From assembly GCF_024623785.1 (NCBI RefSeq), contig NZ_JANKBZ010000050.1, positions 1 through 59,265 of the forward strand: a stretch of 59,265 nucleotides of DNA. Reading direction: 5' to 3'. Shown here in pieces: positions 13,024 through 31,369 of this stretch. Each line of letters starts with the position of its first letter. The stretch's first letter is position 1. The notes under the pieces are model-generated. The model was not told the origin of the DNA, did not search any database, and saw only the letters and a list, made by a program, of their open reading frames with translations. The stretch is from Archangium lipolyticum. Its GTDB lineage: Bacteria; Myxococcota; Myxococcia; Myxococcales; Myxococcaceae. Both the position numbers and the translations under genes were made by a program.

Positions 13024-16061
<3,038 letters not shown>

Positions 16062-16369
16062 GGGAACTCCAGACCCCAAAAAGACCCGTGGGCCCGGTGC
16101 CAGTCTCGGCTCCGCGCCCACGTGCCTTTCCCGTCCTTGTTGAGCCGGGCCGCTACCCGCTGCGGCCCCCTTAGCCTTTACGGAAGGAACCTGATGTATT
16201 CCCGGGGACCCCTCAGTAGGTCCCTGTGCGACTCTATGGTACGCATCGCCTCCGGAGTGAGAACGGAAGCGCTTGTTGCCTGCCTGAGGAGTACGAAAGG
16301 GCTGGACGGAGGAGGCGCCTGGCGCCTGACCGCCCGCACGTCTTCACTAACCCGGGAGGTGTCTTCGGG
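16062..16369. other. intergenic region between convergent genes
   Basis: Between the ends of gyrB and the minus-strand kinase gene lie 308 bases without a gene. A 7-bp inverted repeat (CGTGGGC at 16087-16093, GCCCACG at 16116-16122) with a 22-base loop follows gyrB and could terminate it, but there is no T-run. A short GGCGCC repeat occurs near 16313. Nothing else was recognised. Confidence 0.35.
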
Positions 16370-18949
16370 TCAACGAGATGCGCCGCGCAGCGCCGCCGCC
16401 CTGTCCCGCCGGGACATGACCGTGACATCGACGATGTCCACCTCGAGGGCCCCGGCGTTGTCCTCCACCTGGGTGTCCGGGAAGGTGCAGCGCAGCGTAT
16501 CCGCCCCCGTCAGCTGGTAGCGCTTACCCGACTCCAGGAGTCGGTGTGTGCGCCGGGCGGACTGCTGGCTGCTCTCCACGCACAGCACCCGACGTGTCCG
16601 CCCACCAGCGCCGGATCGCAGCTCCGGGACGTCATCGCGCACGGTGAGCAGGTAGAGGGCGTCCGGGTTGAGACCGCGCAGCACGAGCTGGTGCAGGGGC
16701 TCGAGCACCAGCGCGTCCTGCGCCGCGTTGAACGTGAGCTGGCGGGGCGCCATCCACTTGGACTGGCGCAGGTGCACCCGCACCGTGCCGCTGTTGTCCG
16801 AGACATCGTCATCCAGCAGGAAGACGTGCATCCGGCGCGCGCCCTTGATGGTGCGCGAGGATGGGCCGATCAACCCGAAGGACTCGTCCGCGGACAGGTT
16901 GTCGCCCTCGAGGAAGTAGGCCAGCGTGCCGGACCCGCCCCCGCGTCCCTCGTCCAGCGAGGCACTTCCCTCCGTGTTGGCGGAGTAGCTCGCCGACGGG
17001 CTGAGGTCGATCGACGCGGTGGTGTACTTCGTCACCGGGAAGGCGTTGTGCCTCGGGCGGAGGACGAACAGCCGCGCCGGGTAGTCCACCTCGTTGTAGG
17101 GCTTGGGCTTCGGTGCCTCGGGGGCCGTGTCCGTCACGGCCTCGACGCCCGCGTCCCCGGGTGTGGCCGTGGACGCGGCGACGGCCTCGGTGGGCTGGGG
17201 CTTCTCCTTCTCCGGGGCGGCGGGCTCCGCCTGGACGCGCTCGAGCTCCGCGTGGATGGGCGGATCCGCCTCGCTGCTCAGGGTGAAGCGCTTCGTCCAC
17301 GGCCGGTAGCCGGGCAGGGTGAGCACGAGGGTGTTGGCCTCGTCGAGAAGAACGCCCTCGACGACGAGCGGCGTGACGCCGGGCACGTCCTTGCCGTTGA
17401 GCTTCACCGTGGCACCGATCGGCGTGGAGGTGAGCCACAGCGAGCCCGTCGGCGGTCCCGCGCTCCTCGAGAGGAAGTAGTTGATGGCTCCCAGGAACAG
17501 CGCGAGTCCGATGAGGGGCAGGCTGATGAGCATCACCAGCCGCTGGCGGCGATCGGCGCGCTCCTGGGAGTCACGCTCCTGCGCCTCGCGGTACGTGCTC
17601 AGGGGATCCAGCCTGGCCGGCACGGTGACGGCCGGCATGTCGACAGGGGTGTCGTGCGGTCCCTCGACGGAGTCCCTCGTCGCGGTGACCGGCTCCGACA
17701 CGGCCGTGGAGGGCTCGGCCGCCAGGCCTGGCGGTGCCGCCAGGGTGGCGGGGGCCGGAGTGCGTGGCACGGCACCCGACGTCACCCGGCGCACCGAGGC
17801 CGAACTGACGCTCCGCCCGCTGGCGTTGCTGGAGGGACGTCCACCGGAGCCGTTGGAGGGAGGCCTCTGCGCGCCTGGCCGGCCACCGCCCGTGCCCGGC
17901 TGCCGCGGCTGGATGCCCGTGGGCTCACCCGTGGGCTGCGCCTGCGCCTGCCATGCGGCGAGCTGCTCCAGGAAGCCGGGTGGCACCTCCACCCGGCGCC
18001 CCTCGGCGGCGAGCTCCTCGGAGAAGAGGTGGCCCATCAGCTGCGACAGCATCGCGGGCGAGAAGCGCGCGTTGGCCGAGTAGAGCTGCTCGCGCAGCGC
18101 CTCGGAGAAGGCCTGCGCGGTGGGGTAGCGCGTGTCCCGGTCCAGCGCCATCGCGGTGGCCATCACCGACTCGAGCTCCGGGGTGATGGCCGGGTTGAGG
18201 GCGGAGGGCGGCGCGTAGTCTCCCGAGAGGATGCGCGGCAGCACGGCGACGAGCTCCCCCTCGTAGGGTCGCCGGCCGCACACCATCTCGTAGAGCACCA
18301 CGCCCACGGCGAAGATGTCCGAGCGCGCGTCCAGGTCATGCTGGCCCCGGGCCTGCTCGGTGGAGAAGTACGGGTACTTGCCCTTGAGCGTGCCGGGCGA
18401 GGTGCGCGCCTCCACCACGCTCGTCGCCTTGGCGATGCCGAAGTCGATGACCTTGACCTGGCCCTCGTAGGAGATGAGCACGTTGTCCGGGGACACGTCG
18501 CGGTGGACCAGCCCCATGGGCTGTCCATCCTCGCCCACGTGCCGGTGCGCGTAGTCCAGCCCGTCGCACATCTGGATGGCGATGTGCAGCGCCAGCGGCA
18601 GCGGCAGGCTCGGCAGCCCCGTGCGCTGCGCACGGCGAATCAACTTGGACAGCGGCTGGCCGTGCACGAACTCCATGGCCAGGAAGAACTGGCCGTCGAT
18701 CTCCCCGAAGTCGAAGACCTGGGCGATGTTGCCGTGGGTGAGGCCCGCCGCCACACGCGCCTCGCTGACGAACATCTCCACGAACCCGGGGTCGTCGGCG
18801 AAGTGGGGGAGGATCTGCTTGATGACGACCGGCTTGGTCACCCCCGCCGCACCATTCATCCGTGCACGGTAGGTGACCGCCATCCCGCCCGCGGCGAGCT
18901 TGGATACCAGTTCGTATCTGCCAAACTGCCCGGCTTCGTTGGCGGCCAC
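16370..18949 (-). CDS. membrane Ser/Thr protein kinase with PEGA domain
   Basis: An 859-aa receptor-type kinase beginning at a GTG. The kinase domain (about residues 10-280) has AAGGMAVTY, VVIKQIL, H-R-D-V-S-P-D-N, I-D-F-G-I-A-K and the activation segment 'GKYPYFSTEQARG'. A long Pro/Ser/Gly-rich juxtamembrane linker leads to one transmembrane helix (LISLPLIGLALFLGAI, about 490-507). Outside lie a PEGA domain ('TSTPIGATVKLNGKDVPGVTPLVV'), a linker of charged and Pro-rich sequence, and a beta-rich C-terminal domain of about 220 residues that I do not recognise. It probably senses an envelope signal; the target is unknown. It is divergent from the gene at 19144. Confidence 0.9.
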   Translation of the reverse strand: MAANEAGQFGRYELVSKLAAGGMAVTYRARMNGAAGVTKPVVIKQILPHFADDPGFVEMFVSEARVAAGLTHGNIAQVFDFGEIDGQFFLAMEFVHGQPLSKLIRRAQRTGLPSLPLPLALHIAIQMCDGLDYAHRHVGEDGQPMGLVHRDVSPDNVLISYEGQVKVIDFGIAKATSVVEARTSPGTLKGKYPYFSTEQARGQHDLDARSDIFAVGVVLYEMVCGRRPYEGELVAVLPRILSGDYAPPSALNPAITPELESVMATAMALDRDTRYPTAQAFSEALREQLYSANARFSPAMLSQLMGHLFSEELAAEGRRVEVPPGFLEQLAAWQAQAQPTGEPTGIQPRQPGTGGGRPGAQRPPSNGSGGRPSSNASGRSVSSASVRRVTSGAVPRTPAPATLAAPPGLAAEPSTAVSEPVTATRDSVEGPHDTPVDMPAVTVPARLDPLSTYREAQERDSQERADRRQRLVMLISLPLIGLALFLGAINYFLSRSAGPPTGSLWLTSTPIGATVKLNGKDVPGVTPLVVEGVLLDEANTLVLTLPGYRPWTKRFTLSSEADPPIHAELERVQAEPAAPEKEKPQPTEAVAASTATPGDAGVEAVTDTAPEAPKPKPYNEVDYPARLFVLRPRHNAFPVTKYTTASIDLSPSASYSANTEGSASLDEGRGGGSGTLAYFLEGDNLSADESFGLIGPSSRTIKGARRMHVFLLDDDVSDNSGTVRVHLRQSKWMAPRQLTFNAAQDALVLEPLHQLVLRGLNPDALYLLTVRDDVPELRSGAGGRTRRVLCVESSQQSARRTHRLLESGKRYQLTGADTLRCTFPDTQVEDNAGALEVDIVDVTVMSRRDRAAALRGASR

Positions 18950-19143
18950 GGATGCGCGTCGAGGTGAAGAGGGGGAAGTTGAGCATACCCCGCTCCTCCA
19001 AAAATCCCGAAGAGGGGCTGGGTGGCCTTCTTCCCTACCTATAACGGTGGGCCTGCGAATCCACCAGCCAACGCTTTATCCTGGATCCACGCCCGGTGGG
19101 AGCCCCGGGCCGGGCGGAAGGCCGGATCCGCCCGCTAGAATGG

Positions 19144-20313
19144 ATGGAAATGATGGTGCGACAGCGTAGGGACCCGTCCGTGCTGGTCGGGCTGATGGTG
19201 CTTGCCCTGGTGGTGCCGCCGGGTGGAGCCTGGGGACAGACCTCGGATGTGCCCACCCTGGCCGGACCCGCTCCCCTGGAGGTGACGCCCGCCCCCGTCG
19301 CGGTGGAGGCCGGGGTGAGCGAGCGGCCCCCCTTCCGCGTGCTGCCCGCTGTCGTGTCAGTGGTCCCCGGCCTGTTCCTGCATGGACTGGGACCGCTCGT
19401 CGCGGGGGACACCGGGACGGCGAAGCGGCTCTTCCTCCTGGAGGGCGCGGGCTTCGGGCTGCTGGCCGCGAGCGGGGTGCCCATCGCCATGTCCGGAGCG
19501 TCGCGCCGGGTCATCGGCCCGCTGTACGCGGTGGCGCTGACGGGAGCGGGCCTCATCTCCATCTCCACGCTGGCCAACCTCTACGCGGCGCTGTCACCCG
19601 CCTTCTCTCCGGGCATGGTCCCCCAGAAGCTGCCCCCGCTCGAGCTGGAGCTGGGCTACCAGTACGCGGACGACCCCGCCTTCAGCTACCGGCACTTCGT
19701 CTCGCTGGGGGCCGTGGCCCGGCTGGAGCGCGTGCGCCTGGAGGCCGGGGCCCGCCTGTCGCCGGATGACGGCAACCTGCGCGTGCGCCTGGGCGGCGCG
19801 TACCGGTTGCTGGGCGCGCCCGACGGCGAGCGGCGCGGCGCGGACGGCTCGTCGCTGGACCTGGAGCTCGGCGCGCTCGCGCACCGCTACTCCATCGAGC
19901 GCTTCACCCTGGCCGGTGGCGAGGTCTTCCTGCGGGGCCGCTACGACATGGCGCGCTTCAGCCCGCGCATGGCCGGCTCCTTCGCGGAGATGGGTGTGGG
20001 GATGACGGTGCAGCGCTACGTCTACGCGGGCCCCACGGACGACATGCTCTTCGAGCAGCTCCTCTTCTCCTTCGGCTATGGCGTGTACCTGGGGCGCGGC
20101 GGGCCCTTCCGGGGCGAGGCGATGCTCTACTACGACCACCGCAAGGACGACTTCCCGGGCGGCATCAAGGCTGGGGGCGGTGTGCCAGGGTTCGTCGGGC
20201 TGCGCGGGCGCGTGCTCCTCACCGAGCGGTGGGGCATGGCCGCGGATCTGCAGGCGGGCTCGGCCCTGGTGGGCCGGCTGTCACTCGTCTACGCGTTGGG
20301 AGGTGAGCCGTGA
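19144..20313 (+). CDS. putative outer-membrane protein (hypothetical)
   Basis: The 389-aa product starts with a signal peptide (VLVGLMVLALVVPPGGAWGQ). After a Pro-rich spacer there is a Gly-rich hydrophobic block ('VVPGLFLHGLGPLVAGDTGTAKRLFLLEGAGFG', two or three membrane-like helices). The second half alternates polar and aromatic/hydrophobic residues ('LELELGYQYADD', 'VRLEAGARLS', 'GGEVFLRGRYDM', 'GMTVQRYVYAG', 'GEAMLYYDHR') as in an outer-membrane beta barrel. Its TGA overlaps the GTG start of the metallophosphoesterase gene (GTGA), so the two are coupled and may work together. Met start alternatives are at 19150 and 19153. No family name is assigned. Confidence 0.7.
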   Translation: MEMMVRQRRDPSVLVGLMVLALVVPPGGAWGQTSDVPTLAGPAPLEVTPAPVAVEAGVSERPPFRVLPAVVSVVPGLFLHGLGPLVAGDTGTAKRLFLLEGAGFGLLAASGVPIAMSGASRRVIGPLYAVALTGAGLISISTLANLYAALSPAFSPGMVPQKLPPLELELGYQYADDPAFSYRHFVSLGAVARLERVRLEAGARLSPDDGNLRVRLGGAYRLLGAPDGERRGADGSSLDLELGALAHRYSIERFTLAGGEVFLRGRYDMARFSPRMAGSFAEMGVGMTVQRYVYAGPTDDMLFEQLLFSFGYGVYLGRGGPFRGEAMLYYDHRKDDFPGGIKAGGGVPGFVGLRGRVLLTERWGMAADLQAGSALVGRLSLVYALGGEP

Positions 20314-21410
20314 GGCAGGTGCGCCTGGGTATCATCGCGCTCGCGCTGGGGGCCGGAGGCTGCACCCGGCCGGCCGAGGAGCGTGCGCTGAAGGAGCAGG
20401 AGATCGGCCGGGTGCAGATCGCCGGCGTCGCCTTCACCGTGGAGGACGGGCTCGCGGTGGTGCGCCAGATGGAGCCAGGGGCGCTGACGCTGTGGGGCTC
20501 GGCGCCGGCCTTCCACGTGCGCGCGGTGGCCTCGGCTGGGGCCGCCGAGTCCTGGACGATCCGGGTGCGCAACGCCATGCCGGACGCGGAGCTCTCGGCC
20601 CTGAAGGGGGACGAGCCCCTGGAGGTGGAGTCCCTGCCCGGACCCCTGCCCACGGAGAAGGTGTGGCGGGTGCGCGTGCCCGCGGGCTCGGAGGTCCGGC
20701 TCACGGTGGCGCCTCCGATGTGGGATCAGCCGATGCCCTTCCGCTTCGTGGCGCTGGCGGACGTGCAGGAGGCCCTGCCGCGCGTGGGCGACATCTACAG
20801 GCGCATCAACGCGGACCCCTCGCTGCGCTTCATCTTCTTCTCGGGGGACCTGACGCAGCGGGGCACCGTGGAGCAACTGGAGGAGTTCCAGTCCCGCCTC
20901 CAGGAGTCGCGCATTCCCCTTTTCGCCACGCTGGGCAACCACGAGCTCATCACCCCCGACCCGCGCTACCACGAGTACTTCGGACGCGGGAACCTGCACT
21001 TCACCTTCCATGGCGCGCACTTCACGATGATCGACTCGGGCAACGGAACGTTGGATCCGAAGGCCGAGGAGTTCCTGGACGGGTGGTTGGAGGCGGGGCG
21101 CGACGCGGTGCACATCCTGGGCACGCACATCCCGCTGGTGGACCCCATCGGCGTGCGCAACGGCGCCTTCGCCAGCCGCAACGAGGCCGCGTCCCTGCTG
21201 GGCAAGCTGACGCGCGCCAACCTGGACCTCACGCTCTACGGCCACGTGCACTCGTACTACTCGTTCTCCAACGCGGGGATTCCGGCCTTCATCTCAGGGG
21301 GCGGCGGGGCCATCCCCGAACAGTTCGACGGTATCGGGCGGCACTTCCTGTCCGTGGAGGTGGACCCGGCCTCGGGCATTCGCAACGTGTCCCTGGTGCG
21401 CGTGGACTGA
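20310..21410 (+). CDS. metallophosphoesterase lipoprotein
   Basis: A 366-aa calcineurin-like phosphoesterase anchored as a lipoprotein (signal ALALGAGGC, Cys18). After an N-terminal beta-rich domain of about 140 residues come the metal-binding motifs: F-S-G-D-L-T, L-G-N-H-E, G-T-H-I-P and G-H-V-H-S-Y. The first motif, normally D-x-H, reads A-D-V-Q around residue 150, so one metal-ligand His appears replaced by Gln. The enzyme may bind metal differently or have altered activity. The gene begins at a GTG overlapping the previous stop by 4 nt. The substrate is unknown; the periplasm or outer membrane is the likely site. Confidence 0.85.
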   Translation: MRQVRLGIIALALGAGGCTRPAEERALKEQEIGRVQIAGVAFTVEDGLAVVRQMEPGALTLWGSAPAFHVRAVASAGAAESWTIRVRNAMPDAELSALKGDEPLEVESLPGPLPTEKVWRVRVPAGSEVRLTVAPPMWDQPMPFRFVALADVQEALPRVGDIYRRINADPSLRFIFFSGDLTQRGTVEQLEEFQSRLQESRIPLFATLGNHELITPDPRYHEYFGRGNLHFTFHGAHFTMIDSGNGTLDPKAEEFLDGWLEAGRDAVHILGTHIPLVDPIGVRNGAFASRNEAASLLGKLTRANLDLTLYGHVHSYYSFSNAGIPAFISGGGGAIPEQFDGIGRHFLSVEVDPASGIRNVSLVRVD

Positions 21411-21610
21411 CCGGAAATGTAGGGTCCTACGCCCACATGTGGGGGGTCATCCGGGCCCCTCGCCGCTGGCGGGCGGGAACCTGAACGCGGCGCGAGGCCG
21501 ATAAATCGGCTCCGGAGCGGACCCCCTTGAATTGGCACTGAACATCTGTGCACATGGGGGCCCCACGTTGCCCGGCACCACGCCGCACGTTGGAGGGGAG
21601 GCCCAGGCCC

Positions 21611-22129
21611 ATGTTCGACGCGACCGAAAACGATCCCATCTCGCCCGCCATGCGGGCGCTGCTCGAGGTGTTCTCCACGGAGCTGTCCGAGGTGAAGTTC
21701 CCGGACGTGGACGCGGAGGTGTTGGACGAGGCGGCGGAGCGGGTGAGGGCGCAGGCCGAGGCGGTGGCGAAGGCGCAGGCGGCGCTGGAGGCGGCGCGCC
21801 AGGCGCTGGCCGAGAGCCAGGAGGCGCTGCTGCAGAAGGGCCAGCGGGCGCTGTCGTACGCGCGGGTGTTCGCCGAGGAGGACGCGGCGCTGAGCACGAA
21901 GCTGGAGGCCATCAGCCTGCCGAGGCCGGCGCGCAAGGTGGTGCGTCCGGACGGGACGGTGACCGCCGAGGCTCCCGCGCAGAGCGACGAGTCCGCGCCG
22001 AAGCGCCGGGGCCGTCCGCCGAAGTCCCGCCCGAGCGCTCCGCTGTTCGCCGACGGCAGCTCGCCTGAGGCCGTCGTCGCCGCGGAGGCCGCCGAGGCGC
22101 CCGTGGCCGCCCGCCCCGCGGCGGCTTGA
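21611..22129 (+). CDS. coiled-coil protein with AT-hook-like tail
   Basis: A 172-aa protein starting at ATG 21611 with GGAGGGGAGG upstream; the longer frame from 21548 lacks such a site. Residues 30-95 form a Leu/Ala/Glu/Gln-rich coiled coil ('AQAEAVAKAQAALEAARQALAESQEALLQKG'). The C-terminal third is unstructured and contains K-R-R-G-R-P-P-K-S, a good AT-hook core (R-G-R-P), followed by an Ala/Pro/Glu-rich tail. It may be a small DNA-associated architectural protein, as AT-hook proteins are known in myxobacteria. It is a single gene closed by a strong hairpin terminator at 22160. Confidence 0.65.
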   Translation: MFDATENDPISPAMRALLEVFSTELSEVKFPDVDAEVLDEAAERVRAQAEAVAKAQAALEAARQALAESQEALLQKGQRALSYARVFAEEDAALSTKLEAISLPRPARKVVRPDGTVTAEAPAQSDESAPKRRGRPPKSRPSAPLFADGSSPEAVVAAEAAEAPVAARPAAA

Positions 22130-22159
22130 GCCCCAGGCATCCGGTTGCAGTGGCTCCGT

Positions 22160-22202
22160 CCGGCCTGGAACTCCTCGGGGGCTCCGGGCCGGCTTTATTT
22201 TT
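22160..22202 (+). terminator. rho-independent terminator
   Basis: A 10-bp stem (CCGGCCTGGA pairing with TCCGGGCCGG, one G-U) is followed directly by CTTTATTTTT. It lies 30 bases after the AT-hook gene and separates it from the ATPase/HNH module. Confidence 0.8.
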
Positions 22203-22268
22203 GATGGGCGCGCGGGAACTCACATAAGAGGAGTCGCTTGCTGGCCTCGCGAGGAGGAGAGAACCCGG

Positions 22269-23525
22269 ATGCTCGGTGAGCTGAAGCTGGAGGAGGTCGG
22301 GCCGAGCCCCCGGCTTTCGTTCTCGTTCGGACCACGCCTGAACCTGCTGACTGGCGACAATGGGTTGGGAAAGACCTTCGTGCTCGACCTGGCGTGGTGG
22401 GCGCTGACCCATAACGTCGACCCGGTGCCCGCGTTGCCCAGACCTGGCCGGAAGGGGTGGGTATCCGCTTCGATCGTGACGGAGATGGGGCACAAGCTCG
22501 AGTTCTCGAGCGCCGTTCGCTGGGACAGGCGCATGCGGGACAGCGACGAGGATGGCGAGCTGTTGTCGGTTCCGAACTCCGGGTTGACGCTCTACGCGCG
22601 CATCGATGGGGGATTCCGGGTCTGGGACCCGATGCGGAACAGCCAGGGACGCGTGCATTACGAGGCGGGCGGCCCGAAGTCCTACGACTTTTCTCACGAT
22701 GCGCTCTGGGATGGGTTGGTGGAGGGAGGGCAGGTCCTGTGCAATGGGCTCATCCGGGATTGGGTCTACTGGCAGTTGAGGAACTCGGAGTCCTTCGAGC
22801 GCTTGCGCAAGGTGTTGGCGGTGCTCTCGCCGGATGCCAGGGAGCCGTTGAGACCCGGTGAGCCCACCCGCATGGGGCTCACGGACGCCCGGGAGATTCC
22901 AACGCTGGAGATGCCGTATGGCATCGTCCCTCTCACCCATGCATCCGCCGGAATCCGGCGCATCGTCGGTCTTGCGTATCTGCTCGTCTGGGCCTGGGAG
23001 GAGCACCTGCGGGCCGCCGAGTTGCTCGGGGAGAAGACCGCCAGTCACATCGTGTTCCTCATCGACGAGGTGGAGGCCCACCTTCATCCCCGTTGGCAGC
23101 GGCTCATCCTTCCCTCGGTGCTGGCCGTGGTCCGCGAGCTCCGCCCGGACGTGAAGGTCCAGGTGATCGCCGTCACCCATGCGCCCCTGGTCCTCGCCTC
23201 GGTGGAGCCCTTGTTCGACCCGGCCCAGGACGCCCTCTTCATGTTCGACCTCGTGGGCCATGAGGTGAAGGTCTCCAAGGCGGACTGGCGGCCTCGTGGC
23301 GATGCCAACGCGTGGCTCACCTCCGAGGTCTTCGACCTCAAGGAGCCCCGCTCCAAGGAGGCCGAGGAGGCCATCACCCGCGCCAGGGCCGCGCTCAAGG
23401 ACCCCCACCTCCCCATCGACGAGGTGAAGCGGATCCACAACGACCTGTACCGACTCCTCAAGGATACGGACCCGTTCTGGCCACGCTGGCTCGCGCGTGC
23501 CGAGGCCGCGGGGATCGATCCTTGA
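22269..23525 (+). CDS. AAA/ABC-type ATPase of a Septu-like defence module (PtuA-like)
   Basis: A 418-aa ATPase. Walker A is G-D-N-G-L-G-K-T (residues 29-36). The ABC-type signature region is 'THASAGIRRIVGLAYLLVWAW', Walker B is 'IVFLIDEVEAHLHPRW' (around residues 262-275, with catalytic Glu) and the switch His lies in 'VIAVTHAPLVLASV'. This is the OLD/PtuA-type single-chain ATPase layout without a fused nuclease. The stop TGA overlaps the TTG start of an HNH endonuclease gene. In Septu systems the ATPase and HNH protein assemble and degrade or nick DNA during phage infection, so an anti-phage role is inferred. AGGAGG lies upstream, and a terminator isolates the module from the previous gene. 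Confidence 0.8.
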   Translation: MLGELKLEEVGPSPRLSFSFGPRLNLLTGDNGLGKTFVLDLAWWALTHNVDPVPALPRPGRKGWVSASIVTEMGHKLEFSSAVRWDRRMRDSDEDGELLSVPNSGLTLYARIDGGFRVWDPMRNSQGRVHYEAGGPKSYDFSHDALWDGLVEGGQVLCNGLIRDWVYWQLRNSESFERLRKVLAVLSPDAREPLRPGEPTRMGLTDAREIPTLEMPYGIVPLTHASAGIRRIVGLAYLLVWAWEEHLRAAELLGEKTASHIVFLIDEVEAHLHPRWQRLILPSVLAVVRELRPDVKVQVIAVTHAPLVLASVEPLFDPAQDALFMFDLVGHEVKVSKADWRPRGDANAWLTSEVFDLKEPRSKEAEEAITRARAALKDPHLPIDEVKRIHNDLYRLLKDTDPFWPRWLARAEAAGIDP

Positions 23526-24103
23526 TTCACGTCGAGCCCCAACCCGAGCCCCCGGACTTCGACGCCAAGGTGCGTCAGCCGGGCCACGCCGACCTGGCCT
23601 CACTGGCGGGCGAGCTGAGGCCTCTCTGGCGTCACTGCGCCATGCAGCTCTGGGAGGCCTACAAGGGCGTCTGTGCCTACTCCTCCCTCCACATCCCTCG
23701 TGGCACGGGGGCGCTCTCCGTCGACCATCTGCTTCCCAAGTCGAAGCGGCGGGAACTGGCCTATGAGTGGTCCAACTACCGGCTTGCCTGCGTCCGGATG
23801 AACGCGCGCAAGAACGACCTCGAGGATGTGCTGGACCCCTTCGAGGTGCGGGACGGCTGGTTCGCGCTCGAACTCTCCACGCTCGAGGTCATCCCAGGAG
23901 ATGGGCTGCCCGAGCAACTGCGTGCACAGGTCCAGAAGACCATCGACCGGCTGGACCTGAACGATGACGAGTTCGTCCGGGCCCGGGAGGCCTATTTCCT
24001 GGCCTGGAAGGAGGGCGAGATGCGGTTCCGCTATCTTCTCAAGCACTGCCCCTTCCTGGCGAAGGAGCTGCTCCGCCAGGGCCTCGTCCAGGACGAGGGG
24101 TGA
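23522..24103 (+). CDS. HNH endonuclease (PtuB-like)
   Basis: The chosen TTG at 23522 overlaps the ATPase stop (TTGA); it begins M-I-H-V-E-P-Q-P-E-P-P, which I recognise as the normal N-terminus of this family, whereas the longer frame runs inside the ATPase. The 193-aa protein has the HNH core: Asp68-His69 in 'SVDHLLPKSK', Asn85 in 'WSNYRLAC', and Asn94/Asn98 in 'MNARKND'. Cys51 ('GVCAY') precedes the core; the second Cys usual a few positions later is a Ser here. The C-terminal region ('TIDRLDLND...LLKHCPFLAKELLRQGL') is helical. It is the predicted nuclease of the two-gene system. Confidence 0.82.
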   Translation: MIHVEPQPEPPDFDAKVRQPGHADLASLAGELRPLWRHCAMQLWEAYKGVCAYSSLHIPRGTGALSVDHLLPKSKRRELAYEWSNYRLACVRMNARKNDLEDVLDPFEVRDGWFALELSTLEVIPGDGLPEQLRAQVQKTIDRLDLNDDEFVRAREAYFLAWKEGEMRFRYLLKHCPFLAKELLRQGLVQDEG

Positions 24104-24235
24104 CGAAAAATCACCGCCCGGAGGCACGTCTTCTCCCGGAGCCCCCTCCGTCGGAAGAACGTACCCCCGGGCGATGGAGCCGCCCCCCGCGGACAGTTCA
24201 GGGGGCGGCGTATCAACGTCGTGTTCTGGTGACGG

Positions 24236-25609
24236 CTACCGCTCCGGGTAGGCCGTCCAGCCCTTGGTCCAATCCTCGGTGCCGATGGCGCCGACGAACC
24301 GGGCGTTGGTGTCGAAGAAGCCCTTGCTCTCCGGAGCCGCGGCGTAGTCCGAGACGAGCGCCGGCGACCCGGCCTGCGGCTTGAAGTCCGGCTTGAGCAG
24401 GTCGAGCGCTCCGGCCAGCTTCGGATCATTGTTGAGGAGGGCGCGGTTGGCGGTTCCCGCCAGGGCCGACTCGTCGTACTTCGTCTTGTCCGGATCCGTC
24501 ACGTTGCCGCTGGCGTCCTTCACCACCTGCGGCGCGTGCGGGACGGTGTCGCTCACGTTCTTGTTGTCCCAGTACAGGATGTTCTGGAGGGACAGCGTGT
24601 CGGTGGTGCCGCTCATGCGCGCGACGGTGGTCGTGCCGTCGATGTCCACCGCGATGTCCGTGAAGTGGGCGACGATGATGTTGCGCAGCGTGCCGGCGGT
24701 GCCGTTCTTCAGGTGCATTCCGCCCTGGAGCTTGCCCGCCTTGCCCGGCTCCTGGTTGGAGCCGATGAGCGTCGCGTTCCAGATCTCCGGCATGGAGACC
24801 GGGGTGGCCGTGCCCGGGCCGTTCGGGCTGTTGTCACCCTCGAAGGCGAAGTTACCCACGTCCGGGTTCTGCTGGACGATGAGGTACTGCACCTTGCCCC
24901 GGTAGCCGATGTCCCAGTCCAGGCCGTCGTCGTCCGGCTGGGTGATGACGATGTGCTTGAGGTTGGCGGTGCCGCCGAACATCTCCACGCCGTCATCCGC
25001 GCCCTTGTGGACCTGGATGTAGTCGAGCTCCGTCTTGTTGCCGCAGCCGCCCACCGTCAGGCCGTTGAGCTCGTTGTTCGCGGTGAGCTTGAAGCCGGCG
25101 AACTCGATGCGCACGTACTTCAGCTTGCCGCAGTCGTGCGCCTCGTCGGTGCCGCCGTAGTTGATGCCCGGCTGGGTGGCGGGGAAGCCCTCGATGAGGG
25201 TCGTGCCACCCTGCACGTTGATGGGCGCCTTGCCCAGCAGCACCACGCCGCCCCAGTTGCCCGGCTCCCGCGCGCCCTCCGCCTTGGTGCTGGTGAAGAC
25301 GATGGGCTTCTCCTGGGTGCCCACCGCGTCGATGCGGCCGCCCGTGGTGACCACCAGCGAGCTGAGTCCCTCACCCTCGATCCGGGTACCCGCCTCGATC
25401 TTCAGCGTGCCGCTCTCCACGAAGACGTGGCTCTTGAGGACATAGACGTTCTCGGCCTTCCACGTGGTGTCGGTGGTGATCTTCTCGGTCACCTCGATGC
25501 GCTGGCCCGTCGGCTTCTCGTCCGGCTTGGGCTTCTCCTCCTCGCCGCAGGCCAGGAGGTTGGCGGCCACCAGGCCACCAAGGAGGGAGGTCTTCCAGGA
25601 CAACTTCAT
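24236..25609 (-). CDS. lipoprotein with right-handed beta-helix-like repeats, TonB-operon associated
   Basis: The ATG at 25609 has AAAGGAAG upstream and begins a lipoprotein signal ([13 protein letters not shown], Cys21). After a charged linker comes a domain typical of parallel beta-helix proteins: '[39 protein letters not shown]', '[15 protein letters not shown]', '[10 protein letters not shown]', '[19 protein letters not shown]', '[22 protein letters not shown]', ending '[14 protein letters not shown]'. The 457-aa product lies 34 bases downstream of the TonB-dependent receptor gene, so it is likely the surface or periplasmic partner of that receptor. The ligand is unknown; Asp-rich turns could bind calcium. 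Confidence 0.8.
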
Positions 25610-25643
25610 GGTGGGACTTCCTTTCGAAGGAAACTGCAAGGAC

Positions 25644-28589
25644 CTACAGGCTCCAGCCGAGCGACGCGGAGAACGCCACGCCGGGCCGGTACTTCAGAAC
25701 GTCGACGTCGCCCTGCCGGAACACCACGGGCTGGTTGAGGATGTTGGTGGCGGCGAGCTTTAGCTGGAGGCTGTCGCTCAGCTTCTGCCCCACCGTCAGG
25801 TCGACGCGGTGGAACGGCTGCTCGTACACGTCGGGGAGCCCCTCGATGCCGACCTCGGAGATGCGGGCGCCGACCACGTTGTAGAGCAGGGAGATCTCCG
25901 TCCCGCTCTCCGTCCGCGCGTAGCCGAGGTTGAGGTTGACCACGTAGGGGGACTGGCCCTGCAGCGGACGCTGCTGATTGGTCTGCAGGGGCGCGGAGTC
26001 TCCGAGGTCGATCTCCGAGCGGGTGAGGGTCAGGTTGGCTCCCACGCGCAGCGGCGCCAGGGTGGGCGTGAGGCGCCCGAGCGAGGTGCGAGCCTCCAGC
26101 TCCACGCCATAGCTGGTGGCGCCCGGGGCGTTGTCGAAGCTGACGTCCTGCTGGAAGGACGAGACGATGATGCGCTCGATGGGCTGCTGGAAGCGCTTGT
26201 AGAAGACGCTCGCGGCGAGCACGTCGTTCTCACCCGGGAACCACTCGGCGCGCGCGTCCAGGTTGTGGATGCGCGTCTGCACCAGCGACGGATCGCCCGA
26301 CACGGAGCGGTTGCGGACGAAGTCGTAATAGAGGACGGGCGCCAGCTCGCGGAAGGTGGGGCGGGCCAGCGTGTAGCTGTAGCCGGCGCGCAGGTTGAGC
26401 TGGGGGTTGAGCGCGTAGATGACGTTGAGCGTCGGCAGGAAGTCCTTGTAGTCCTGGTTGGCTTCCTTGGACTGCGCGCGTCCGCCGAAGTCGCTGCCGC
26501 TGGTGAGCCGCTGGACGCTGGCCTCGTAGCGCAGGCCCGCCACCAGGCGCAGCGGCTCCCAGAGGGACACGTCGGCGGTGGCGTAGCCGGCGAACAGGCC
26601 GAGCGTGGCGTCATAGGCATCGTCCGACAGGGTGTTCTCCAGCACGCGGATGCCGTTGCCGATGTTGTCCGAGGCGAAGATGTCCTCCGGGCCCTGGTTC
26701 AACACGGGGAGGTTGCCCCCCACGTACTGGTAGCGGAAGCGGCGCATGTCGAGCGCGCGCATCGAGCCCTGGGCCATGCCGCCCACGCGCAGGCGCACGC
26801 CGGACAGCGGCAGGGTGGCGTTGGCGCTGCCGCCGAAGGAGCTCTCCCCGAGCTCGCTGTACCAGCGCTCGGCGCCCGGGTCGTTGTTGTACCGGGGCGT
26901 GCCCTCCTCGGTGTACCCGTAGGGCAGGCTGCGCGTGTCCGGCTCGGAGCGGTCGACGTAGGAGTAGTTGGCCTGCCAGTCGACCTCCATGTCCCCGAGC
27001 ACGTTCAGCCGGTGGAAGCCGCGGAGCTGGTTGAAGGTGAGGGCGCGGCTGGTGAACTCGGAGGCGGTCTTGCTGAACTGCTGGCCCTGGGCGTCGGCGC
27101 CGGCGATGGAGCGCGCCCGGCTCTCACCCGTGCGGGTGAAGAGCGAGAAGACGGACAGCTCGAAGTCGCGGCTCGGCTGGAAGCCCGCGCTGACGAGTCC
27201 GCTGATGCTGGCGCTCTCGGTGCCCAGCACGTTGCGGGAGGTGTCCTCGATGGTGACGCCACCCCCCTGCGCGGCCTGGGTGCCCGTGACGTCCGTGAGC
27301 TGGACGCTCTCCTTGTGGCCGTAGTTCACCATGGCCAGGTAGCCCAGGCGCTTGTTGTCGAAGCGCAGCGTGTCGCCAATGGACGCGCCGATGCCCATGT
27401 TGGGAAGGGCGCGCGCGGTCTCCAGGGTCCAGATGTTGGGGAAGTCCCGGCCCACCCGGTTCACGTCCTCCACCGTCATGCCGTTCTGGCCGGGGAGCAG
27501 CGGGCCCGTGCGTGGCACGGAGTCCGGCAGCTTGCGCGTGCCATCGTCGAAGCCCAGCCAGTTCAGCCCGCCACCGTTGTAGGTGAAGCGGTTGCGGAAC
27601 GTGCTCGCCGTGTCGCCCGAGAAGTTGATGCGCGGCTTGAACTCGAATTGGGACGGATAGTTGTTGGTCTCGATGAGCAGCACGCCGCCCGCGAAGGTGC
27701 CCGGCAGGTCCGCGGTGTAGCTCTTCAGGATGTTGAGGTTGGCCAGGAGGCTCGTCGGGAAGATGTCGAGCGGGACGGCCTGCTCGTCCGGCTCGGGGCT
27801 GGGGAGGATGGCGCCGTTGAGCAGCGTGGTGGAGTAGCGGCCACCCAGACCGCGCAGCAGCACGTAGCGACCGCCCACCACCGTGGCGCTCACCACGCGC
27901 TTCACCGCGTCCGAGGCGCTCGAGTCCGGCGTGCGCGCCATCTCCTGGGAGCTGATGGCGTCGGACACCGCGGCGGCCTTCTTGCGCTCCTGCAGCAGCG
28001 CGCCCTCGGCGCGGCGGTCCGCGCGGGCCTCGACCACCACTTCCTGCACGGCGCCCGCGTCGGCGCTCAGCTGCACGTCCAGCTTCGTGGCCTTGCCCTC
28101 CTCCACGATGACGCCGGTGATGCGGCGGCCCTCATAGACGTCATAGAAGACGCGCAGGTCGTACTTCCCGGGAGGCAGCGCCAGCTGGTAGTTGCCATCC
28201 ACGTCGGTGAGGACGCTCTTCTGCGCGCCGGTGACGACCTTCACCGTGGCCTCGATGAGCGTCTCCTTCGTCTGGGCGTCGGAGACCTGGCCATAGACGC
28301 CGGTGAAGCCCGGAGGAGGCGTGGCGGAATCCGCCATCATCTCGTCCTCGGTGCCCATGTCCGCCGCTCCCTCTCCCTCTGGGAGAGGGCTGGGGTGAGG
28401 GTCTTCCGCGGGAGCAGGGGCCTCCACGGGAGCGGTGGGCTCAGCGGGAGCAGCGGCCTCGGTGGGAGCCGCCGCGGGGGCGGTCCCCTCGACGGGGGTC
28501 TGCGCCATCACGGGGGCGGCGAGCAGTGCGAGCGCCGCGAGCGCGGCGCGGATGGAATGGAGACGAAGAGACAACACGGGACTCCTCAC
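25644..28589 (-). CDS. TonB-dependent outer-membrane receptor with CarboxypepD_reg-like N-domain
   Basis: A 981-aa receptor. A signal peptide ends near M-A-Q30, followed by an Ala/Pro linker containing P-H-P-S-P-L-P-E-G-E-G (residues 64-74), which is the translation of a mobile palindromic repeat. Next comes a carboxypeptidase-regulatory-like beta domain ('GVYGQVSDAQTKETLIEATVKVV ... VDGNYQLALPPGKYDLRV'). The plug has 'RTPDSSASDAVKRV...GGRYVLLRGLGGRYSTTLLNGA', and the 22-strand-type barrel contains 'RAGYSYTLARPTFRELAP' before the C-terminal 'FSASLGWSL'. It imports a ligand using the energising complex encoded upstream. The start is a GTG; another GTG four codons on, preceded by AGGAG, is equally plausible. 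Confidence 0.9.
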   Translation of the reverse strand: MRSPVLSLRLHSIRAALAALALLAAPVMAQTPVEGTAPAAAPTEAAAPAEPTAPVEAPAPAEDPHPSPLPEGEGAADMGTEDEMMADSATPPPGFTGVYGQVSDAQTKETLIEATVKVVTGAQKSVLTDVDGNYQLALPPGKYDLRVFYDVYEGRRITGVIVEEGKATKLDVQLSADAGAVQEVVVEARADRRAEGALLQERKKAAAVSDAISSQEMARTPDSSASDAVKRVVSATVVGGRYVLLRGLGGRYSTTLLNGAILPSPEPDEQAVPLDIFPTSLLANLNILKSYTADLPGTFAGGVLLIETNNYPSQFEFKPRINFSGDTASTFRNRFTYNGGGLNWLGFDDGTRKLPDSVPRTGPLLPGQNGMTVEDVNRVGRDFPNIWTLETARALPNMGIGASIGDTLRFDNKRLGYLAMVNYGHKESVQLTDVTGTQAAQGGGVTIEDTSRNVLGTESASISGLVSAGFQPSRDFELSVFSLFTRTGESRARSIAGADAQGQQFSKTASEFTSRALTFNQLRGFHRLNVLGDMEVDWQANYSYVDRSEPDTRSLPYGYTEEGTPRYNNDPGAERWYSELGESSFGGSANATLPLSGVRLRVGGMAQGSMRALDMRRFRYQYVGGNLPVLNQGPEDIFASDNIGNGIRVLENTLSDDAYDATLGLFAGYATADVSLWEPLRLVAGLRYEASVQRLTSGSDFGGRAQSKEANQDYKDFLPTLNVIYALNPQLNLRAGYSYTLARPTFRELAPVLYYDFVRNRSVSGDPSLVQTRIHNLDARAEWFPGENDVLAASVFYKRFQQPIERIIVSSFQQDVSFDNAPGATSYGVELEARTSLGRLTPTLAPLRVGANLTLTRSEIDLGDSAPLQTNQQRPLQGQSPYVVNLNLGYARTESGTEISLLYNVVGARISEVGIEGLPDVYEQPFHRVDLTVGQKLSDSLQLKLAATNILNQPVVFRQGDVDVLKYRPGVAFSASLGWSL
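28368..28402 (-). repeat. REP-like palindromic repeat inside the receptor gene (copy 1)
   Basis: A 35-base element reading, on the minus strand, ACCCTCACCCC, two variable bases, then CCCTCTCCCAGAGGGAGAGGGA. It contains the near-palindrome CCCTCTCCC-AGA-GGGAGAGGG and matches 40315-40349 except at the two variable bases. Here it is translated in frame as P-H-P-S-P-L-P-E-G-E-G in the linker of the TonB-dependent receptor. Confidence 0.85.
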
Positions 28590-28675
28590 CGACGGGCGCG
28601 CGAACGAAACGCGAGGCCCGTGGCAACGAAATGGATGGAATGTGAAGAGTTGGAGACCGACAGGAAGACTTCAGG

Positions 28676-29116
28676 TCACGGAGCCGCGGGCTCGGCGACG
28701 GCGTCCGGAACCACCGCGACGGTGATGTTTCCACCGCGTGCGAGGTCCAGCACCTCCATCGCGCTGCCGTACGGCACGTCGTTCTCCGCGTCGAAGAAGA
28801 CAATCTTGTCCGGACGCGCGTTGATCATCCGCTGCAGCCGGGCCACGAGCTGGTCTCGCGGTACGTCCTCGCGGTTGATCTGCACCGCGCCGGACTTCGT
28901 GACGGTGAGCACCACGGGAGGCAGCGCTCCCGGAGGAGGAGGAGAGATCTCCGCCTGCTCGTCCGCCTTGCCCGGCACGTCCTGCCACATCTGCTTCGTC
29001 ATCAACGGAGTGACGACCATGAAGATGATGAGGAGGACGAGCACCACGTCCACGAGCGGCGTCACGTTCATCGCCGGGCGGATTCCGCCCTTGCCACCAC
29101 CGAGATCGAAAGCCAT
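28676..29116 (-). CDS. exbD: ExbD/TolR family biopolymer transport protein (second copy)
   Basis: A 146-aa single-span protein: a short cytoplasmic N-terminus (GGGKGGIRPAMN), then the transmembrane helix with its essential acidic residue in 'VTPLVDVVLVLLIIFMV', and a periplasmic domain ('VLTVTKSGAVQINREDVPRDQLVARLQ', 'VFFDAENDVPYGSAMEVLDLAR'). ExbD uses proton flow with ExbB to drive TonB. It is the second of two tandem exbD genes, 12 bases after the first. A Pro-rich insertion (SPPPPGALPP) and an extended C-terminus distinguish it. It is followed by the receptor gene. Confidence 0.92.
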   Translation of the reverse strand: MAFDLGGGKGGIRPAMNVTPLVDVVLVLLIIFMVVTPLMTKQMWQDVPGKADEQAEISPPPPGALPPVVLTVTKSGAVQINREDVPRDQLVARLQRMINARPDKIVFFDAENDVPYGSAMEVLDLARGGNITVAVVPDAVAEPAAP

Positions 29117-29128
29117 GGCCGCGAGCTC

Positions 29129-29542
29129 CTAGTTCTTCTTCAGGTCGACGACCTGCAGCGAGATGCCCGGAAAGCCGATGTCCTGCAGCGTCTTGAAGAC
29201 ACCGCGCACCTCGGCGTAGCGCACGGCCCGGTCGGCCTTGAGCACCACGCGCGCCTCGGGGTCCTTCTCGTGGGCGGCGCGGAGCTGCTCGACGAGCTGG
29301 GCCCGGGGCAGCTCCTTGCGATCCAGGAACAGCGCGCCCTGGGTGGTGAGGCTCACGGTGATGGGGGTGAGCGAGTTCTCCTCGCCCTTGTCCGGATTCA
29401 TCACCGCGGGCAGCTCCACCGCGGCACCGGCCTCGAGCTGGGGCGTGACGACCATGAAGATGATGAGGAGGACGAGCACCACGTCCACCAGCGGCGTCAC
29501 GTTCATCTCGGGCGTGAGCGGGCTACGCCGGGCGGACATCAT
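29129..29542 (-). CDS. exbD: ExbD/TolR family biopolymer transport protein (first copy)
   Basis: A 137-aa protein with the same core helix 'VTPLVDVVLVLLIIFMVVTP' as its neighbour and a canonical periplasmic domain ('ITVSLTTQGALFLDRKELPRAQLVEQLRA', 'VVLKADRAVRYAEVRGVFKTLQDIGFPGISLQVV'). The start lies inside exbB (20-base overlap), which implies coupled translation. Two different ExbD subunits in one operon is a recurrent feature of TonB systems in delta-proteobacteria and Bacteroidota; the ExbD dimer may therefore be mixed. Confidence 0.92.
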   Translation of the reverse strand: MMSARRSPLTPEMNVTPLVDVVLVLLIIFMVVTPQLEAGAAVELPAVMNPDKGEENSLTPITVSLTTQGALFLDRKELPRAQLVEQLRAAHEKDPEARVVLKADRAVRYAEVRGVFKTLQDIGFPGISLQVVDLKKN

Positions 29543-30278
29543 GCCCCTCCTTGCGAGTGGCCCGCTCCACGTCCAGGGCCACCGCGCCCTCGCCGCGCAC
29601 CGCCGGGGCGACGACGCCGTGCACGTCCTCCAGGTGGTCCATGAACTCCTTGCGCGCCAGGTCCAGCGACAGCAGCAGCGCGTCCGCGCGGGTGGAGAGC
29701 AGGTTGAACATCATCACCGCGGGGATGGCCACCAGCAGGCCGAGCGCCGTGACGACGAGCGCCTCGGAGATACCCGCGGACACGGCGCCCAGGCCGCCCG
29801 AGCCCGTCTTCGCGATGCCGGCGAAGGACTCGATGATGCCCACCACCGTGCCCAGCAGTCCGACGAAGGGGGCCACCGAGCCCACGGTCGCCAGCACGCT
29901 CATGCCCCGGCGCACGTCGGCGGTGACGCGCTCGTAGATGCGCTCCAGGTCGCGCCGCGTGAGCTCCACCGCGCCCAGCTTGCCTTGCGGCGCCGCCTTC
30001 TTGGCCAGGTACGTCTTCACTCCACCGCCCAGCAGCTTCGCCAGGCTGCTCCCCTTGGCGGCCGTGGCCTCGGAGACGAACTGCTCGTGCTGCTGCGACT
30101 CCAGCATCCGGCCGGCGCGCGAGGCGAACTTCCGGTCCGCCGCCTTCGAGCGGAAGACGAAGAGGAGCCGCTCGAAGAAGACGATCAGCGACGCCAACGC
30201 GAAGGCGATCAGCGTGTAGGCGATGCACCGGGCGAAGAAGCCCATGTGCGCGTAGATTTCCAACAGGTTGAAGTTCAT
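29523..30278 (-). CDS. exbB: MotA/TolQ/ExbB proton channel family protein
   Basis: A 251-aa inner-membrane protein with three transmembrane helices: one near residues 15-37 ('CIAYTLIAFALASLIVFFERL'), then a long cytoplasmic loop, then two C-terminal helices ('VLATVGSVAPFVGLLGTVVGIIESF' and 'EALVVTALGLLVAIPAVMMFNLL') with the family's conserved Gly-Leu-Leu-Gly-Thr-Val. It forms the pentameric channel that energises TonB. It lies 49 bases after tonB and overlaps exbD. Confidence 0.93.
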   Translation of the reverse strand: MNFNLLEIYAHMGFFARCIAYTLIAFALASLIVFFERLLFVFRSKAADRKFASRAGRMLESQQHEQFVSEATAAKGSSLAKLLGGGVKTYLAKKAAPQGKLGAVELTRRDLERIYERVTADVRRGMSVLATVGSVAPFVGLLGTVVGIIESFAGIAKTGSGGLGAVSAGISEALVVTALGLLVAIPAVMMFNLLSTRADALLLSLDLARKEFMDHLEDVHGVVAPAVRGEGAVALDVERATRKEGHDVRPA

Positions 30279-30327
30279 CTCGGGGGGCTCCGGGACGGTG
30301 GGAGAGGCGGTACGACGCGGGACTGCA

Positions 30328-31071
30328 CTACTTGAGACGGAACGGGACCTTCACGATGCGGAACACGGCGGTGGGCTGGCCCTCGACGAGCGCGGGCTCG
30401 TAGCGCCACGTCTTCACCGCGGCGACGGCGGCGCTGACGAAGGGCTCCTCGCCGCGCATCACCTTGACGGCGCCCACGCGGCCATCCACCTCGACGACGA
30501 CCTTGAGGATGACAAGGCCCTCCTGCCCCTTGGCGCGCATGTCGGCGGGGAAGTCGGGCAGGACGTTGGAAGCCAGCTCCTTGGGAGGCGTGGCGGCCTC
30601 GGGGAGGTTGATGGGGGCGGTGCGGCGGATGCCACCGGCCACGCCCGGGCTGTCCACTCCCGTGACGATGGCGCCCGCCACCAGCTGGCCCGTACCGCCC
30701 ACGGCGATGGGGGCCGCGGCCACGGCGTTGGCGGCATCGGCCTCGGGCGGCTTCTCCACCGGAATCTCCTTGGGTGCCACCATGGCCGCGGGCGCGGCGA
30801 CGGTGGGGGCCGGAGGAGGCGGCTTCGCCTTGGGCTTGGGCGGCGGGGGAGGGGGCGGAGGCGGCGGCTTCACCTCGACCACCGGGGCGGGCGGAGGCGG
30901 CGGACGGAACACCACGTCCACCCGCTTCTCCTTGATGACCTCCTTCACCTGACTGCCCACCACCACCGCCGTGACGCCGATCAGCGCGCAGACGCCGAGG
31001 GAGGCCACGGTGGAGATCGCGAACCTGCGGGCCGTCTGGACATCGGTGGCGCTGTCGAAGGTCTCGAACAT
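30328..31071 (-). CDS. tonB: TonB energy transducer
   Basis: The ATG at 31071 is chosen (GGGGGT upstream); the frame is open for 100 more codons but without TonB features. The 247-aa protein has an N-terminal membrane anchor ('FAISTVASLGVCALIGVTAVVVG'), a Pro-rich periplasmic span ('RPPPPPAPVVEVKPPPPPPPPP', then Lys-Pro-rich sequence) and the C-terminal TonB fold ('LPDFPADMRAKGQEGLVILKVVVEVDGRVGAVKV ... AAVKTWRYEPALVEGQPTAVFRIVKVPF'). It transfers energy to the receptor encoded downstream. It is the first gene of a six-gene minus-strand operon ending at 24236. Confidence 0.93.
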   Translation of the reverse strand: MFETFDSATDVQTARRFAISTVASLGVCALIGVTAVVVGSQVKEVIKEKRVDVVFRPPPPPAPVVEVKPPPPPPPPPPKPKAKPPPPAPTVAAPAAMVAPKEIPVEKPPEADAANAVAAAPIAVGGTGQLVAGAIVTGVDSPGVAGGIRRTAPINLPEAATPPKELASNVLPDFPADMRAKGQEGLVILKVVVEVDGRVGAVKVMRGEEPFVSAAVAAVKTWRYEPALVEGQPTAVFRIVKVPFRLK

Positions 31072-31139
31072 GACCCCCGCCGTATAGCGAGGCCATGTTT
31101 CGGTCATGTCCAGCCCCCGCAACACTTCATCACGCGGCG

Positions 31140-31236
31140 TGTCACCGTTTCCTCGCGGCTCCCTGACGGATGTGTCACGAGGTGACGGCCGGTGACAGCC
31201 GGATGACCCCCAGGTTCCATGTAACGGAGCTGTCAC
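31140..31236. promoter_or_regulatory. cluster of TGTCAC half-sites upstream of tonB
   Basis: In the region between tonB and the divergent kinase gene, TGTCAC occurs at 31140-31145, 31173-31178 and 31231-31236, and its complement GTGACA at 31192-31197. The second and a GTGAC at 31182-31186 form an inverted pair with a short spacer. The clustering suggests an operator for tonB or the divergent gene; the regulator is unknown. Confidence 0.35.
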
Positions 31237-31369
31237 GGCGGGCCGGGGGACCCGACCCGCGAAGTCGCCTGATCCATCTCGTTTTCCGAGCGGGCGAGCA
31301 GCCGTTCTCACCTCTCGGGAGGCCCGGACTTGGAGGGGGGCATCGAACCGTGCGAGTCTGGTGCCCACC

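Follow-up and report, generated by a model that had tools for sequence, protein, structure and literature searches.

A probable reverse-transcriptase-free Septu module at a variably occupied chromosomal site of Archangium lipolyticum

A coupled gene pair between two convergent genes

The window, that is the whole stretch of DNA analysed here (59,265 nucleotides), is an entire contig (C50) of the Archangium lipolyticum genome (G000; 12.6 Mb in 75 contigs). Other G numbers designate genomes of the Myxococcaceae family, and L numbers the loci of relatives. The window carries two adjacent genes on the same strand, ptuA and ptuB, which overlap by 4 bases. The features of the locus are as follows.

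22153..22204, + strand: hairpin and T-run resembling an intrinsic terminator, closing the upstream gene and insulating the cassette (from folding; also present in the empty G031 site)
22205..22268, + strand: ptuA leader with an AGGAGG stretch of ribosome-binding-site type, near-identical in G006
22269..23525, + strand: ptuA, ATG start, 418 residues, OLD/ABC-type ATPase (PADLOC PDLC00307, 529.8 bits)
22389..23093, + strand: ptuA codons 41-275, the block most different between close relatives (from sequence comparison)
23522..23525, + strand: TTGA, the ptuB start over the ptuA stop, an overlap conserved in relatives
23522..24103, + strand: ptuB, TTG start, 193 residues, HNH nuclease (PADLOC PDLC00348, 237.9 bits)
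23672..23812, + strand: HNH core of PtuB, from C51 to K97 and including D68, H69, N85, N94 and K97 (from conservation)
24104..24235, + strand: host-site hairpins (fold z -3.55; same sequence type in the empty G005 site)

The frame of ptuB is also open further upstream, up to a GTG at 23312 that would give a protein of 263 residues, and the TTG start was therefore chosen by conservation. The 4-base stop/start overlap is found in all nine members of the window clade, with TTG as the ptuB start codon in G000 and G006, GTG in G033, G002 and G003, and ATG in G067, G019, G027 and G029. It recurs in 24 of 32 other family loci, a count that includes the eight other clade members; in seven of the 32, ptuB starts 35-59 bases upstream of the last base of the ptuA stop, and one is interrupted. 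In the genome_contigs collection, 282 stretches from many phyla encode PtuAB relatives, and the best 80 were kept. Among these best 80 of 282, ptuA precedes ptuB in every case, the 4-base overlap is present in 74, and ptuB starts with ATG (56), GTG (16) or TTG (8). Since the overlap recurs in both the family loci and these relatives, translational coupling is a family trait, by which the nuclease would be made together with its regulator.

The flanking genes are convergent, with 21548-22129 (+) upstream and 24236-25639 (-) downstream. The hairpin at 22153-22204 folds with -26.2 kcal/mol (z -2.88) and is followed by TTTATTTTT; the consensus terminator/promoter scanner did not list it, nor did it detect a promoter for ptuAB, which presumably sits in the ptuA leader (22205-22268). 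The hairpins at 24104-24235 are probably a shared terminator of the host site. The initial annotation had described this pair at the same gene coordinates (22269-23525 and 23522-24103), with ptuB starting at TTG inside the ptuA stop and the two genes lying alone behind a terminator between unrelated genes: the coordinates are right, the start is borne out by the conservation of the overlap across the clade and the relatives, and the terminator corresponds to the hairpin found at 22153-22204.

The product of the downstream neighbour, 24236-25639 (-), has no Pfam match. It is 91% identical in G006, 65-68% in G067, G003 and G073, and 46-61% in the other listed genomes, hinting that this gene may have been exchanged too.

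Family, fold and catalytic residues of PtuA and PtuB

Both proteins are matched by Septu models over nearly their full length, PtuA by PDLC00307 (residues 1-415 of 418) and PtuB by PDLC00348 (residues 1-190 of 193). The best PADLOC models outside Septu are AriA for PtuA (70.9 bits) and HNH_I-A, the retron PtuB model, for PtuB (35.1 bits). Pfam assigns AAA_21 and AAA_15 to PtuA and matches HNH in PtuB below the cut-off. Against PDB sequences, the top match of PtuA is PtuA 8ee4 (E 1.6e-7). The single PtuB sequence retrieves a weak match to retron PtuB (E 0.005), and a profile of 31 PtuB sequences places E. coli Septu PtuB 8ee7_C first (E 9.9e-6).

AlphaFold2 models were built as single chains only, with a mean pLDDT of 83.6 for PtuA and 87.3 for PtuB, residues 62-66 of the latter falling below 50. 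The PtuA model is closest to 8eea_D, also a PtuA (Foldseek E 5.2e-16, TMq 0.57). The PtuB model superimposes on retron PtuB 9u9y_H (VIA Z 15.2, rmsd 3.1, 169 aligned) and on E. coli Septu PtuB 8eea_G (VIA Z 14.7, rmsd 3.2, 185 aligned), the top row other than a PtuB in the same search having a Z of 4.4.

PtuA contains what we take to be a Walker A motif (G29-T36), a signature serine (S226) and a Walker B motif (D266-E267), as well as H304. Across 31 aligned homologues, residues G29, G34, K35, S226, D266, E267 and H304 do not vary. In the 31-sequence PtuB alignment, C51, Y53, H69, N85, R87, N94 and K97 are invariant, and position 54, a serine in the window protein, is S, T, L or A. A larger ptuB alignment has 111 rows, two of which are gapped at the catalytic positions and five of whose loci are counted twice (L152-L155 and L179, i.e. 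G067, G003, G029, G019 and G004). There, all 109 comparable rows keep H69, N85, N94 and K97, position 68 is D in 99 rows and E in 10, and C51 is kept in 110 of 110. Cys54 and Cys93 each occur in one row (of 109 for Cys54), and no row has all four cysteines. The second cysteine pair of the window protein (C90, M93) likewise has no second Cys. By comparison, 18 retron-type (TIGR02646) stretches score above cut-off in the same bacterial family, and a CxxC precedes D/E-H in all 16 for which a locus is available, a motif that window PtuB does not have. The solved E. coli Septu PtuB aligns C-C-Y-S at the first cysteine pair, so that in 8ee7, as in the window protein, the second Cys of the first CxxC is absent at the same place. 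Because the substitution is branch-wide and the solved Septu PtuB is alike at that place, the missing cysteine is a trait of this PtuB branch, not a lesion or a sign of decay, and the branch may be zinc-free.

Three points of the initial annotation concern the proteins. The Walker motifs said to be intact are confirmed, their key residues being invariant; the cysteine said to be missing from the CAYxxC region is indeed a serine; and in the profile comparison that had been suggested, Septu models outscore the other listed families by 529.8 to 70.9 bits for PtuA and by 237.9 to 35.1 bits for PtuB.

The window PtuAB is an ordinary member of the known Septu kind. It resembles E. coli Septu PtuAB (8ee4, 8ee7, 8eea) in its gene pair, ATPase motifs and fold, although identity in the structural alignments is about 16-18% and the E. 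coli PtuB chain has 243 residues versus 193. The H69-N85 spacing equals that of H75-N91 in the PtuB of Septu EcB88 (PMC13096335). The effectors PtuA and PtuB of type I-A retrons (Ec78/Eco7 and Ec83/Eco4; Septu type II in PADLOC) share the same fold and pairing, the type I and type II naming being that given in PMC8565338. The window pair adds one well-resolved Septu, from a whole PtuB branch that keeps its HNH residues and has no retron-type cysteine pairs.

Occupancy of the site and divergence of its alleles

A search for both flanking genes (21548-22129 and 24236-25639) covered 96 family genomes. They lie on one contig in 54 and are convergent neighbours in 52. Seven of these 52 syntenic sites hold window-type PtuAB (G000, G006, G033, G067, G019, G027 and G029), 25 hold only other cargo and 20 are empty, the gap measuring 91-219 bp at the empty sites and 0.7-8.1 kb at the 32 others. 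In G067, PtuAB is accompanied by an alcohol dehydrogenase gene. Moreover, G002 and G003 carry window-type PtuAB at another location, with surroundings common to both. Sequence was inspected for 14 of the 20 empty sites: in G005 and the Corallococcus-type sites read, the upstream stop runs straight into the downstream hairpin, while G031 still has the left-hand terminator and some of the leader and reads as a deletion scar.

Within the 96 genomes, PtuA is detected in 25 (E<=1e-30) and PtuB in 34 (E<=1e-3). The PtuA tree has 102 rows; it excludes five loci present in duplicate and four whose ptuA is absent or too short to use (<300 aa). All nine window-type copies group in a single clade (SH-aLRT 99), in which G033, from another genus, nests among the Archangium copies. 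G062 (split ptuA) and G004:C75 (a ptuB frame of 70 aa) were kept out of the alignments. The ptuA relative of G062 (C1:835869-838577) lies in two pieces about 1.5 kb apart and was probably interrupted by an insertion.

The initial annotation had regarded the pair as a mobile defence cassette and had proposed a synteny comparison. Occupancy varies, with the pair at the site in 7 of 52 syntenic genomes, and mobility is supported to the extent of gain, loss and a second location; there is no tRNA gene at 15000-32000, no clear terminal repeat (only weak repeats inside 22080-24300) and, according to Pfam, no integrase among the three nearest neighbours. GC3 is 0.87 in both ptuA and ptuB versus 0.92-0.96 in the three genes that precede the pair and the two that follow it, a composition weakly in keeping with import. 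Transport on phages or plasmids was not upheld: viral contigs gave 17 pattern matches, none of them a relative, phage records gave none, and the five matches among 72,556 plasmid records are all <60% identical, none being myxobacterial.

The other cargo is mixed and includes alcohol dehydrogenase, histidine kinase, subtilase, trypsin-like, GST, ThiF, Kelch and Imm11 genes, among others. ORFs were viewed at all 32 occupied sites, and 17 cargo ORFs were compared with Pfam and 17 with PADLOC. The defence genes listed by PADLOC at the site are PtuAB at seven genomes, SoFic at three and one SoFic remnant; matches to 'subtilase' (G055) and 'E1-E2' (G079) were judged to reflect general folds. The possibility of a defence hotspot was not upheld, and the site is a tolerant landing place. 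The SoFic-type Fic genes lie in three Myxococcus-group genomes, G070, G059 and G066 (L127, L129 and L130), and the 104-aa remnant in G054 (L125).

At this one locus, close relatives differ far more in the cassette, chiefly in the central part of ptuA, than in its surroundings. Between G000 and G006, in windows of 200 columns, identity is 89-98% for the flanks, reaches 100% over the leader, falls to 68% in ptuA and is 68-82% in ptuB. The synonymous p-distance over codons 41-275, block limits that were set after viewing the divergence profile so that the Fisher p-values are post hoc, reaches 0.46 for G000-G006 and 0.64, 0.69 and 0.59 for three Corallococcus-type pairs. In the same four pairs it is 0.17-0.29 in the rest of ptuA, 0.29-0.53 in ptuB and 0.03-0.12 in the flanking genes, no 40-codon window of which exceeds 0.19. 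The excess is mild in G000-G033 (0.53 in the block versus 0.38 for the remaining ptuA codons, and 0.21 and 0.36 for the two genes on either side), and G002-G003 shows no synonymous excess in the block (0.21 versus 0.25). Misalignment is not the cause, since codons 156-275 align well and still show the divergence.

Separate trees for the ptuA block, the C-terminal part of ptuA and ptuB gave no supported conflict that would point to recombination; they are alike except for how the three Corallococcus-type rows are ordered in the C-terminus tree (support 44), and their lengths differ. The trees are thus compatible both with exchange involving unsampled alleles and with a simply faster rate of change, exchange with unsampled relatives being the likeliest explanation. 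Among the natural alleles of this site, the greatest difference is in the ATPase middle, which points to where recognition may lie. We suggest, tentatively and as a conjecture more apt to fail than to hold, that the PtuA middle (41-275, chiefly about 41-155) could be a phage-recognition part, diversifying or block-exchanged at a fixed locus, while the leader, the ATPase C-terminus and the neighbours stay alike. If so, this natural allele series would make the Septu trigger testable by block swaps.

Proposed action and neighbouring defence genes

Intact genes of Septu family and fold, with conserved catalytic residues, conserved coupling and variable presence, make it very probable that the window pair is a complete and intact RT-free Septu anti-phage module (PADLOC type I). 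Points that weigh against this reading are NCBIfam scores below cut-off for the PtuA/PtuB (retron Ec78) and TIGR02646 models, the negative promoter scan, the lack of any relative in viral contigs or phage records, and a site that is no defence hotspot. To our knowledge, no member of its subfamily has been tested against phage. The PtuA-PtuB oligomer has reportedly been described in a structural paper. The pair forms an insulated unit, with a convergent host gene on either side. Antiphage activity, trigger, target, oligomer and expression are proposed here by analogy with relatives. PtuA, an OLD/ABC-type ATPase, would bind ATP, oligomerise, and both carry and restrain PtuB. A phage-related trigger would lift this restraint, and the freed HNH site of PtuB would cut nucleic acid, either DNA or host tRNA, so that phage production might be stopped, perhaps at the cell's cost. 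In Septu EcB88, immunity is abolished by mutation of K43 or D316 in PtuA or of H75 or N91 in PtuB, and the system cuts the variable loop of tRNA-Tyr (PMC13096335). The PtuAB of retron-Eco7 depletes tRNA-Tyr and that of Eco4 does not, and nicked DNA is the cited target of the Septu from E. coli ATCC 25922 (PMC11555353). As PtuAB targets vary, that of the window pair cannot be named.

The solved structures closest in fold include the PtuAB of retrons Ec78 and Ec83, and three RVT_1 (reverse transcriptase) matches above cut-off lie elsewhere in the genome, all on other contigs; the window pair might accordingly be a retron I-A effector pair restrained by msDNA/RT, whose RT and ncRNA were lost or are encoded elsewhere in the genome. 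However, RVT_1 has no match on the window contig, no Rfam family is found at 19000-28000, the retron Ec78 NCBIfam models score far under cut-off (46.8 of 500 bits for PtuA, 30.2 of 150 for PtuB), and the CxxC common to the 16 retron-type stretches is absent. The lack of RVT_1 on the contig and the retron scores mark the pair as RT-free Septu, and a retron effector is very improbable. Still less probable is a decaying module with an inactive nuclease, a reading that Ser54 and Met93 could have suggested, since both frames are full length, the catalytic residues are intact, Cys54 occurs in one of 109 comparable rows, no row has all four cysteines, and the solved E. coli Septu PtuB has a serine in place of the first of the two lost cysteines.

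A chromosomal ATPase-nuclease pair with an internal job, such as kin or allele recognition, instead of an antiphage one would fit the three full-length paralogues in G000 and the strong difference of the PtuA middle between close relatives at one site, as in a self-recognition gene. This too is improbable, if slightly less so than a retron effector: presence is patchy within genera, and subfamily members stand beside BREX genes in other phyla, a CBASS cyclase (L176) and GmrSD (L204), surroundings that speak for the antiphage Septu module. Further PtuAB pairs in G000 lie at C33:22826-24774 and C2:445566-447457, their PtuA being 51% and 49% identical to that of the window, and more distant matches are found on C16, C35 and C5.

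BREX PglX and/or PglZ occur in the flanks of 13 of the best 80 of 282 relatives, and both in eight (tblastn E<=1e-6), a tally with no matched control. The reference PglX and PglZ proteins were those named by PADLOC at L162, L164, L190, L198 and L204. In L166 (19-6936), L164 (20-7227), L225, L204, L190 and L175, pglX stands before PtuAB and pglZ after it, the hosts being Marinobacter, Chromatiaceae, Magnetococcales and Verrucomicrobia records; in L162 the pglZ ORF starts at the end of ptuB. The BREX-side PtuAB of L166 (Marinobacter) and L164 (Thiocapsa) belong to the same subfamily, with PtuB 48-49% and 43% identical over the best segment, whereas the window pair stands alone. The PADLOC flank scan of relatives comprised 96 of 123 listed flank ORFs, the list covering 62 of 75 loci; its tallies are descriptive, with no matched control, and methyltransferase matches may partly be PglX. 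In several phyla relatives adjoin BREX pglX and pglZ or lie between them, and there Septu may serve as a second line of defence built into the locus. A literature search at listing level noted no Septu inside BREX, and no claim to a first report is made. The value for follow-up lies in the allele series and in these relatives beside BREX genes.

In the window itself, 30 ORFs were scanned with PADLOC, and no BREX family was named (E<=1e-20). Besides PDC-M17, the scan matched PD-T4-6, mad6, C3a189 and MkoA, which we take to be kinase-type models; as they match neighbours in the window, such models match ordinary myxobacterial genes. Two overlapping genes at 56941-59108 (+) match PDC-M17, a candidate defence system (PDC-M17A, E 1.7e-48; PDC-M17B, E 1.1e-99), and a second PDC-M17AB pair adjoins the ptuAB paralogue on contig C2 (L075:5055-7303).
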